Shown: piece after piece, positions 31,742 to 33,833 of the stretch
How positions within the stretch are numbered: position 1 is the first letter of the stretch
Layout of the letters: each line of letters opens with the position of its first letter
Assembly: GCF_007997135.1 (NCBI RefSeq)
Contig: NZ_VORU01000006.1
Location: 62,001 to 126,000, forward strand
DNA length: 64,000 nucleotides
Origin: Aequorivita lipolytica
Lineage (GTDB): Bacteria > Bacteroidota > Bacteroidia > Flavobacteriales > Flavobacteriaceae
Direction of reading: 5' to 3'
The notes under the pieces: generated by a model
Seen by the model: the letters and a program-made list of their open reading frames with translations, nothing else
Databases searched by the model: none
What the model was told of the DNA's origin: nothing
Made by a program: the position numbers and the translations under genes

Positions 31742-32356
31742 CTATACCAAATTGAATATGGCAATTGCATAAAGATAAAACCGAACAAAACGAAGCAAGC
31801 CAAACATAAGGTAATTTCTAAATTTATAGTGAATCATCCCCGCAGCCATACTCGTCATTGAGTAAGGGATAGGCAGCAAGGCACCTACAATAATTAAGAA
31901 CCCGCCCCATTTGCGAATGTGTTTTAAATGCTTTTTCATCTTCCCTTCCATATACTCAAAAACGCGGGGAATTGTAAAAATCCATTTTCCGATGAAATAG
32001 GAAATAATACCACCAACGTACGAAAGCGTTGCCAATAATGTTAAATATAGTATGGGCTGCGGCATTTTATCGCTCCAAGCAATAAATATTTCAGGAGGAA
32101 CTAGCCCCAAAAACGATTCGGATGCAAGGAAAACCAACAAAATATTTAGTGGTGCATAGGTTTCTGTTATGTACGTAAAAAGATTGCTGAAATCTATTAC
32201 GTAAAGATCTACCACGATCAGAGCAACAATCATCAAAATTATTGGTATGATTGCTTTTTTAAGGCTCTGTCCTACAAAGGAATAAAACCCAGTGTATTTA
32301 TAATACAAATGGGTTCGCTTGAGTTTATTTGTTTCAGATTTTTTAATGGTATTCAT
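31742..32356 (-). CDS. VTT (DedA-like/SNARE-associated) membrane protein
   Basis: 204 aa with an N-terminal cytoplasmic segment and about five hydrophobic helices. The VTT-domain pattern includes FLASESFLGLVPPEIFIAW, a glycine-rich GGIISYFIGKWI and the re-entrant GALLPIPYSMTSMAAG. DedA-type proteins are implicated in lipid flipping (undecaprenyl phosphate or phosphatidylethanolamine) and envelope homeostasis. This shorter branch is common in Bacteroidota and its substrate is not established. It has a full promoter at 32431-32461. Confidence 0.85.
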   Translation of the reverse strand: MNTIKKSETNKLKRTHLYYKYTGFYSFVGQSLKKAIIPIILMIVALIVVDLYVIDFSNLFTYITETYAPLNILLVFLASESFLGLVPPEIFIAWSDKMPQPILYLTLLATLSYVGGIISYFIGKWIFTIPRVFEYMEGKMKKHLKHIRKWGGFLIIVGALLPIPYSMTSMAAGMIHYKFRNYLMFGLLRFVRFYLYAIAIFNLV

Positions 32357-32430
32357 TGTGATTATAGATACTAATATTTCTAATATTTCAGTGATAAATT
32401 AATTCGTCATTATTCGTTTTTACCAGGTTG

Positions 32431-32461
32431 CAAATATATAGTTATACCCACCATAGTGCAA
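32431..32461 (-). promoter_or_regulatory. Complete flavobacterial promoter for the VTT gene
   Basis: TTG (32459-32461), a 20-nt spacer, then TATATTTG (32431-32438): both elements match the Bacteroidota -33/-7 consensus. Confidence 0.7.
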
Positions 32462-32481
32462 TTATTTGGCAATACTTTGGT

Positions 32482-32559
32482 GGTTAATGGTATGTTAAAC
32501 AACTACTAAATTCTTAAAAGTATGACCGCAGCTTGCTCAAAGGTTAATGTTTAGTTAAA
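32482..32559 (+). repeat. Direct repeat pair GGTTAATG-N4-GTTAAA, 60 bp apart
   Basis: Copies at 32482-32499 and 32542-32559 agree at 15 of 18 bases including both conserved halves. They lie between the divergent VTT promoter and the micro-ORF cluster, so they may be operators; no regulator is assigned. Confidence 0.45.
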
Positions 32560-32640
32560 TCATTACTTTGTATTACATAGTACTGTAACAATATACCCTT
32601 CCCTGCGTCTTTTAGATATAACCCAATAAAACAATTTATT

Positions 32641-32727
32641 ATGAGAACTTTAGACAGCGACCAGTTAACAGGAAAAATGAAAACTTCAAAATCGTATTCT
32701 TGGAATATGAAAAGAAGATTTCGCTAA
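32641..32727 (+). CDS. 28-aa basic microprotein, copy A
   Basis: ATG 32641 to TAA 32727. The peptide starts MRTLDSDQL and ends SKSYSWNMKRRFR. A second 28-codon frame 36 bp downstream encodes the same length with MRTL, S6, S16K17, Y19, W21-F27 all conserved (15 identical positions), while the middle differs. Conservation at both ends with divergence between them argues for real translated paralogues. The peptide is very basic at its C-terminus and has no membrane helix. Function unknown; possibly nucleic-acid or ribosome binding. Confidence 0.7.
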   Translation: MRTLDSDQLTGKMKTSKSYSWNMKRRFR

Positions 32728-32762
32728 TAAACTTAAACAGAAAACAATTAAAACTTACAATT

Positions 32763-32849
32763 ATGAGAACATTGAACAGTAACGAAAAACAACACAGACC
32801 ACAAAATTCCAAAGCGTATAATTGGAATATGAAACGGCGTTTTAAATAA
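32763..32849 (+). CDS. 28-aa basic microprotein, copy B
   Basis: ATG 32763 to TAA 32849. It starts MRTLNSNEK and ends SKAYNWNMKRRFK. Synonymous-type differences from copy A occur in the conserved block (AAAAGAAGATTT versus AAACGGCGTTTT for KRRF), which is a sign of selection on the protein rather than the DNA. It is probably co-transcribed with copy A and the 44-aa frame after it. No database family is known to me. Confidence 0.7.
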   Translation: MRTLNSNEKQHRPQNSKAYNWNMKRRFK

Positions 32850-32882
32850 CGTCCACTACTGAAAAACTAAAAGCAACTAACT

Positions 32883-33017
32883 ATGAAAACTTTACGAAAT
32901 ATTCAAAAGAGGATAAAATGCGGATCGCAAAAAGAGCACACATTGAGCTACTTAAACGGAAGTCATCATCTGTTTGAAGATCCTACAATAAGAATAATAT
33001 GCAGATACGTGTATTGA
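32883..33017 (+). CDS. 44-aa basic micro-ORF, third of the cluster
   Basis: ATG 32883 to TGA 33017. It begins MKTLRNIQKRIKCG, echoing MRTL of copies A and B, and has Lys/Arg-rich ends, two Cys and a HH pair, but lacks the WNMKRRF tail. The start codon context (AACTATGAAAAC) resembles that of the other two (ATTATGAGAAC), and a strong terminator follows 25 bp later, so it is likely the last gene of the unit. Less certain than A and B. Confidence 0.5.
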   Translation: MKTLRNIQKRIKCGSQKEHTLSYLNGSHHLFEDPTIRIICRYVY

Positions 33018-33041
33018 AACATAAGAAACCGAGAAATGACT

Positions 33042-33076
33042 AAAGCTGGATATAAGAAATTTAATCCAGCTTTTTT
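33042..33076 (+). terminator. Terminator of the micro-ORF cluster
   Basis: AAAGCTGGAT (33042-33051) pairs perfectly with ATCCAGCTTT (33064-33073), followed by T-rich sequence; it overlaps the stop codon of the converging DUF1456 gene. Confidence 0.85.
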
Positions 33077-33371
33077 ATTTTTTAGGATTGGGACTATATT
33101 TACGAACAGGTTTTGGTTTATCTTGAGCTTTAGTCACCTTCTTTTCCGGCATTGGACCCCTCAAATGAATGACCAAACCATTTAAAAAATTACGAAGAAA
33201 CTGGTCGCCACATTCCATGTATTTTTCATGGTTTTCATTTCTAAAGATAGCACCCAACTCACTCTTGGTCACTGCAAAATCAACTAGCGAACATATTTTT
33301 ACAATGTCCTCGTCGCGCAGTTTGTGAGCTACGCGTAGTTTTTTCATTATATCATTATTCGTAAGTGCCAT
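33075..33371 (-). CDS. DUF1456 (YehS-type) protein
   Basis: 98 aa. One DUF1456 repeat is visible: LTNNDIMKKLRVAHKLRDEDIVKICSL...VTKSELGAIFRNENHEKYMECGDQFLRNFLNGLV. E. coli YehS has two such repeats and about 150 residues, so this is a single-repeat form, as is usual in Bacteroidota. The tail is basic and proline-rich. Function unknown. Confidence 0.88.
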   Translation of the reverse strand: MALTNNDIMKKLRVAHKLRDEDIVKICSLVDFAVTKSELGAIFRNENHEKYMECGDQFLRNFLNGLVIHLRGPMPEKKVTKAQDKPKPVRKYSPNPKK

Positions 33372-33512: not shown

Positions 33513-33833
33513 ATGAAAAATTCAGAAAAACATTCAAGTCCAAAAAAGCAATCAGAAATAAAAGGTGAAAACGAAAATCTCCCTTATAACCCAAATATTA
33601 CTGAACACGACAAAGACATACTTTCACAGAAAAATATTCATGGTGATGGCGGGGATGATCAACAACTACGCGACCGCAAACAAAAAGTAGATTTTGAAGG
33701 AAAAGATTTAGATGTTCCTGGTAGAAGTCAAGCTAAAAAGTCTAATGGAAATGGTCTCCGAGATGAAGAAAACAAGCTATTCAGCCAAGGCGGGGAAGAC
33801 AATGAAAGTTTAGAACAAGATAAACAGTTATAA
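33513..33833 (+). CDS. Hydrophilic, probably disordered stress-type protein
   Basis: 106 aa made almost only of polar residues (Lys, Glu, Asp, Asn, Gln, Gly), with no hydrophobic core and no signal. This composition resembles hydrophilin or LEA-like stress proteins. It sits next to a universal stress protein gene on the other strand. I recognise no named family. Confidence 0.7.
   Translation: MKNSEKHSSPKKQSEIKGENENLPYNPNITEHDKDILSQKNIHGDGGDDQQLRDRKQKVDFEGKDLDVPGRSQAKKSNGNGLRDEENKLFSQGGEDNESLEQDKQL

Follow-up and report, generated by a model that had tools for sequence, protein, structure and literature searches.

The HAAS-PadR-PspC system of membrane stress is, to our knowledge, known mainly from analyses of domains and gene neighbourhoods. 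Small stress-induced proteins of model bacteria are short proteins under the control of alternative sigma factors. The microproteins analysed here are likewise short and predicted to be under alternative sigma control, but their 28-aa family differs by forming a tandem array of a soluble basic peptide. The HAAS-PadR arrangement has been described (PMC11237479), and the gene content of flavobacterial PadR operons agrees with the part of that source available to us. For Flavobacterium psychrophilum, the accessible part of PMC9723704 reports SM6, an ECF motif with a CGT box, upstream of an ABC ATPase, T9SS genes, a putative small RNA and an ECF sigma/anti-sigma pair. A SigP motif has been proposed for P. 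gingivalis in the sections available of PMC4800418, and the portion of PMC5613140 at hand discusses a PadR gene of Zobellia in another setting.

The locus studied here lies in a 64,000-nucleotide stretch of the Aequorivita lipolytica genome, which in its whole length is called the window. Its microprotein operon carries the module of GTTAA repeats and an inverted repeat found at the PadR/PspC/Toastrack operon, the counterpart of the HAAS-PadR / PspC-Toastrack system (PMC11237479, as far as accessible). The microproteins are encoded at a separate locus though and lack PspC, LiaI-LiaF-TM, HAAS and Toastrack domains, and the part of that source consulted describes no such short peptide. The likeness to SM6, compared at the -10 box and the downstream genes, lies in the CGT-type -10 box and a downstream ABC transporter ATPase, and the sections seen of PMC9723704 mention no operon of microproteins. 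The SigP motif, as given in the available part of PMC4800418, is unlike the ECF boxes of the microprotein leaders. New are a family of small proteins, its control region, and its probable link to a type of response already described.

Organization of the operon

The operon consists of three short frames closed by a terminator:

32641-32727, plus strand: ORF1, a basic microprotein of 28 aa (dN/dS 0.17, 18 sequences)
32763-32849, plus strand: ORF2, a basic microprotein of 28 aa and paralogue of ORF1 (dN/dS 0.23, 15 sequences)
32883-33017, plus strand: ORF3, the operon's third frame, a microprotein of 44 aa that evolves fast between genera (dN/dS 0.10, 15 close sequences)
33042-33083, plus strand: intrinsic terminator of the operon (z -5.56; fold equalled by 0 of 200 shuffles)

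A previous reading of the sequence alone had claimed two adjacent 28-codon frames sharing 15 of 28 residues, a third frame of 44 codons and a strong terminator at the end of the unit, and each of these elements is present. ORF1 and ORF2 are separated by 35 nt and agree at 15 of 28 residues (54%). When all adjacent short ATG frames of the window are compared, 126 pairs in total, this pair scores highest (runner-up 7 of 23). At up to two mismatches the window holds two copies of the motif TGGAAYATGAARMGNMGNTTY, a number reached in 0 of 100 shuffles. The terminator is a hairpin at 33042-33073 followed by a U run, with a folding energy of -18.1 kcal/mol. ORF1 to ORF3 are one small operon of selected microproteins.

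A profile comparison did not establish ORF3 as a paralogue of ORF1 and ORF2: hhalign aligned the first five columns only, with a probability of 7%. In some genera, frames of the ORF3 type and the 28-aa family share an ending of the form W-x3-[KR]-R-Y. With a profile of ORF3, matches at E 0.01 were obtained in 15 of 397 genomes, eight of them at E 1.2e-5 or better. A further small frame starts within 200 nt after the last 28-aa copy in 73 of 80 loci, a count obtained with a permissive rule that may include chance frames. These downstream frames often end in KRYAH or RYAY and change fast between genera.

The genes flanking the operon are chromosomal and depend on the clade (80 loci). In Aequorivita they are VTT-domain and DUF1456 genes, and in other clades what we take, from their sequences, to be ExbD-like, helicase and Hsp20-like genes. 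A hydrophilic protein of 106 aa without a Pfam match is encoded at 33513-33833 and is kept near the operon in 11 of 80 loci.

An undescribed family of basic peptides

Members of the 28-aa family carry a mean net charge of +5.8 (161 copies, 145 distinct). The N-terminus reads MRTL[DN]SNQ and the C-terminus WN-x-KRR[YF], with these conserved ends taken from copies preselected for N near position 7, WN and RR. Read by eye, the sequences of family members contain nothing that resembles a signal peptide or a transmembrane segment. For a 33-aa member the predicted model has helices at residues 6-14 and 17-31 (pLDDT 74.6, pTM 0.34), and for ORF3 at 4-31 and 34-41 (pLDDT 72.1, pTM 0.35). Both models are of low confidence, and the structure predictions are too weak to carry an argument.

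The sequence-only reading knew of no described family with this signature, and the searches bear this out. ORF1 to ORF3 have no match in Pfam at E up to 1, including the PspC, Toastrack and HAAS domains, and the 28-aa family matches nothing in NCBIfam or PHROGs and, at E up to 10, no chain of the PDB, ribosomal chains included. Six peptide strings do not occur in the literature full text covered, which leaves bioRxiv preprints and most subscription-journal papers outside. Among the publications listed for small proteins, PadR/PspC and ECF factors in flavobacteria, no title or beginning of an abstract names the family. Within this coverage, the 28-aa microproteins are an undescribed family.

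The family is widespread in the Flavobacteriaceae. The lack of homologous short frames in related genomes had been named as the outcome that would speak against a protein, and such frames were found in 26 of 28 congeners (profile A4, built from 50 peptides, E 0.01) and in 129 of 397 genomes of the family from 87 of 237 genera (profile A3, built from 24 peptides, E 0.01), the own genome being included in both counts. Seven of the 129 matches are weak, with a best E of 0.001-0.01. Host genera include Aequorivita, Ulvibacter, Altibacter, Marixanthomonas, Aquimarina, Winogradskyella, Gelidibacter and Psychroserpens, and the large genus g146 has no microprotein among the matches listed. A scan with the exact motif recovered 7 of 59 genomes, again with the own genome. 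In a sample across the phylum, 5 of 395 genomes match profile A4 at E 0.001, four of them Flavobacteriaceae including the own genome, and the fifth (G633) is a partial and probably spurious match. The two congeners without a microprotein match, G015 and G023, are 99% complete, which indicates that the family is dispensable; neither has a match to the composite module described below. Cargo of a mobile element, phage or plasmid was rejected on the chromosomal flanks and on a search with one family member, to which none of 50,697 phage and 72,556 plasmid records gave a match.

Selection on protein

The genes often occur in tandem, and 161 copies were collected from 80 of the 104 confirmed loci, with one to five copies per locus and a median spacing of 45.5 nt. 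The collecting script demanded N near position 7, WN and RR, so the invariance of these residues is partly by construction. Copies within a locus are on average more alike (identity 0.79) than copies between loci (0.60), which indicates that copies were repeatedly duplicated or converted.

The sequence-only reading had suggested selection on protein and had proposed dN/dS on homologues as a check. The ratios from Aequorivita and close relatives (the window, loci L067-L082 and L093; n = 18, 15 and 15 for ORF1, ORF2 and ORF3) are 0.17, 0.23 and 0.10, respectively, and point to purifying selection on all three frames. In line with the suggestion, 12 of 114 within-locus copy pairs encode identical proteins, and 11 of these carry 2-7 DNA differences that are all synonymous, the remaining pair being identical in DNA. 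The six congeners recovered with the exact codon motif keep ORF1 to ORF3 intact and in order. We consider it virtually certain that the 28-aa family is a real protein family under selection.

Promoter and leader

Upstream of ORF1 the leader contains a conserved promoter block at 32543-32610, which lies outside the span covered by the sequence-only reading; function and regulation are additions of the present analysis. The elements are as follows:

32543-32547, plus strand: first GTTAA of a direct repeat, predicted activator half-site (pair spacing 11 bp start to start)
32554-32558, plus strand: second GTTAA of the direct repeat (the -22 copy, found in 66 of 73 leaders)
32564-32582, plus strand: TACTTTG-N5-CATAGTA, an imperfect inverted repeat and predicted operator of the PadR type (same architecture before the PadR/PspC operons of other genomes)
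32584-32590, plus strand: TGTAACA, predicted -35 box for an ECF sigma factor (67 of 73 leaders match TGTAACR-N15-CGTC exactly)
32606-32610, plus strand: predicted ECF-sigma -10 box CGTCT, from leader comparison

The -35 and -10 assignments follow the box conventions of ECF-sigma promoters. The block CAWAGTACTGTAAC, or a near variant, precedes the array in 73 of 81 leaders. Both GTTAA copies, at -33/-32 and -22 when counted relative to the arm CATAGTA, are present in 63 of these 73 leaders and lie 10 or 11 bp apart, and a -10-like box of the CGTC/GTCTA type occurs at one offset in 72. Of the eight leaders without the block, five truly lack it (L113, for its first cluster, L124, L138, L139 and L144); at L087, L089 and L117 collection began at the second copy after the first had failed the pattern, and the block was missed. 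The repetition of GTTAA at one helical turn suggests, on our assumption, an activator of the OmpR/PhoB type. TACTTTG was at one point taken as a housekeeping -7 box, a view dropped once the fixed pair TGTAACA-N15-CGTC emerged.

The boxes of the leader look like an ECF-sigma promoter. In five genomes, chosen among the microprotein-bearing ones rather than at random, the pattern TGTAACA-N14-17-CGTCTWNT has 20 matches compared to one for the reversed pattern. Microprotein leaders account for three of these 20 matches (G000, G103 and G327). The others precede an ABC ATPase in four of the five genomes and an OmpH-like gene in one, along with genes that we take to be a permease, a DUF456-like and a peptidase-like gene; a few sites have no clear gene behind them. 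We infer, on good support, that an ECF-type sigma factor transcribes the microprotein operon. At two sites in two genera, L192 (G088:C12:145718) and L203 (G103:C11:38030), an ECF-type promoter precedes related sequence in which no frame is clear. These represent a candidate ECF-driven small RNA, comparable to Rfp11 of F. psychrophilum as it appears in the accessible part of PMC9723704.

A module shared with the PadR/PspC operon

The composite of GTTAA pair and inverted repeat was searched in 36 genomes, selected among those bearing microproteins and not at random. It has 56 matches in 34 of the 36 genomes, with none for the reversed control. These comprise 34 microprotein operons, 21 PadR operons and one match at a contig end (G407:C42); 39 assignments come from the DNA read and 16 from coordinates adjoining known matches. 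The microprotein genomes G134 and G159 have no match. The PadR operon encodes DUF4870, PadR and PspC + LiaI-LiaF-TM + Toastrack, and its leader reads GTTAA-N6-GTTAA followed by TACTATG-N5-CATAATA. In a narrower set of 12 genomes, likewise chosen among microprotein-bearing ones and not random, PadR (PF03551) is present in all 12, and the inverted repeat occurs at up to one mismatch in 12 of 12 microprotein leaders and 10 of 12 PadR leaders. The own genome is a poorer case. There the PadR leader combines the GTTAA pair with TACTATG and a poor right arm, CACACTA, and is not matched by the strict module pattern. Stricter and looser operator patterns both miss it, so that it is visible only by reading the DNA, while the looser one picks up the PadR leader in other genomes. 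No PadR-leader site was found in the congener G006.

The two operon types share the upstream module alone. Among 30 loci read from these 56 matches, ECF boxes are present in 18 of 18 microprotein leaders and in 0 of 12 PadR leaders, the latter carrying a TATATTTG box that resembles a housekeeping -7 element. The small frame before padR varies (L151, L154, L157 and L159), being 61 aa in the own genome and about 13 aa beginning MNS(L/F) elsewhere, and might perhaps serve translational coupling.

The module also occurs in genomes without the microproteins. Thirty genomes defined by having no reported microprotein match, for some of them only through their absence from the 129 genomes above, and in which divergent copies are possible, yielded 16 module matches, one per genome and none at a microprotein operon. 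PadR lies within 1.5 kb of ten of them, one precedes a first gene that is DUF4870-like by eye, and five are in g146. At the PadR-operon sites L278, L285 and L287 the arms vary exactly as at microprotein leaders. In genus g146 (L276, L277, L279, L280 and L282) the module precedes what we take to be an ankyrin-repeat gene with an apparently secreted product, which is likely a further target of the same regulators.

Toastrack-PspC (PF22744) was found in 123 of 129 microprotein genomes (Fisher p 0.0004, kinship ignored); this co-occurrence is weak evidence given how common PF22744 is overall (345 of 397 genomes). The six microprotein genomes without PF22744 are 68-88% complete, and every microprotein genome at least 90% complete also matches Toastrack-PspC.

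A second candidate regulator resides in an operon for HTH_34 (PF13601), presumably with a CreD-like gene, in the same genomes. Its inverted repeat, TACTTTG-N5-CAAAGTA, is close to that of the microprotein leader, so that HTH_34 rather than PadR could bind there. The sites of the HTH_34 / CreD-like operon differ in being paired about 950 bp apart, in being mostly followed by CTTTA, and in having, where read, neither the GTTAA pair nor ECF boxes. In several genera (L166, L178 and L187) two repeats of the form TACTTTG-N5-CAAAGTACTTTA stand about 950 bp apart, and these paired repeats are probably the operon's own operators. That PadR itself binds the inverted repeat in the microprotein leader is somewhat more likely than not. 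The composite module makes it quite probable that the microprotein operon is wired to envelope stress in common with PadR/PspC, and the microproteins are probably co-regulated with the PSP-like PadR-PspC envelope-stress system.

Discussion

We suggest that in membrane stress a PSP-like HAAS/PspC-PadR system and an ECF sigma factor converge on the microprotein operon. The ECF sigma factor would provide the output, and PadR, or HTH_34, would leave the inverted repeat or be reset there. An activator on the GTTAA pair, together with the binder of the inverted repeat, would couple the operon to the PspC membrane-stress system. The product would be a pool of cytoplasmic, strongly basic and Trp-containing short helical peptides, with several gene copies serving dosage. 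Such peptides might bind an anionic surface, such as the inner face of the inner membrane, or a partner within the complex of PspC and PadR. In this way they might make the membrane more stable or adjust the response. Confidence in the ECF sigma and PadR/PspC wiring rests on the module result in 36 genomes. The explanation as a whole, that is a selected microprotein operon under ECF and PadR/PspC control with a membrane or PspC-complex target, has in our view an even chance of being correct.

The target is the more tentative part of this explanation. We infer that the peptides may act as soluble basic agents at the membrane or on the PadR-PspC system, though a membrane or PspC-complex target is a possibility that we hold at less than even. 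The main rival is binding of ribosomes or RNA, in which the basic peptides would modulate translation during the ECF/PadR response instead of acting at the membrane. The small size and very basic character of the peptides would suit such a role, as would the conserved WN-x-KRR end and the dosage provided by tandem copies. Yet the PDB search found no ribosomal chain resembling the family, and about two thirds of the Flavobacteriaceae genomes searched have no match, unlike what is expected of a core ribosomal factor. Similar promoters moreover precede genes that include envelope proteins. We regard translation modulation as rather unlikely.

The peptides might alternatively be small feedback regulators that bind PadR, a HAAS/PspC protein or an anti-sigma factor, with copy number setting the sensitivity. 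The upstream control module common to the PadR/PspC operon fits this role, as does the match to Toastrack-PspC in all of the more complete microprotein genomes. However, 222 of 345 Toastrack-PspC genomes have no microprotein match, and the system thus works without them. Dedicated feedback regulation appears unlikely on this balance.

Secreted or membrane-active peptides such as bacteriocins, toxins or type I toxin-like products could also be small, basic and arranged in tandem. Such a role is hard to credit given that family members appear by eye to have neither a signal peptide nor a transmembrane stretch. The recurrent flanking clusters, also read by eye, contain no obvious export or immunity gene and vary by clade, and the member searched against the phage and plasmid collections had no match. 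A function as transcript, with an ECF-driven small RNA as the active molecule and the frames secondary, has a parallel in the putative regulatory RNA Rfp11 behind an ECF-type promoter of F. psychrophilum (accessible part of PMC9723704), and the predicted fold of the transcript is stronger than that of shuffles (z -3.0), in part through the terminator. We rejected an RNA gene as very improbable, for the dN/dS of 0.10-0.23 and the purely synonymous differences between identical-protein copies within loci speak against it, and 32300-33200 has no Rfam match at E up to 1. Chance frames inside a non-coding leader, suggested by the very short lengths and the absence from the protein family libraries searched, have next to no probability in view of homologues conserved across many genera and the purifying selection and synonymous copy differences found in them.

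The microprotein operon might belong to a PSP-like flavobacterial response with a multi-copy peptide arm. Tandem 28-aa soluble peptides, as direct effectors or feedback ligands, would be jointly induced by an ECF sigma factor and the HAAS/PspC-PadR system, and the partner peptide encoded last would evolve rapidly. We offer this picture tentatively, as one that may well prove wrong. One third of the sampled Flavobacteriaceae genomes carry a 28-aa family that is unnamed in any library searched. If the proposed wiring is true, the HAAS-PadR-PspC system would gain a second target operon, and the leader would offer a short natural operator for testing the function of PadR in Bacteroidota. The family would also show plainly that a microprotein controlled by envelope stress can be amplified in tandem.
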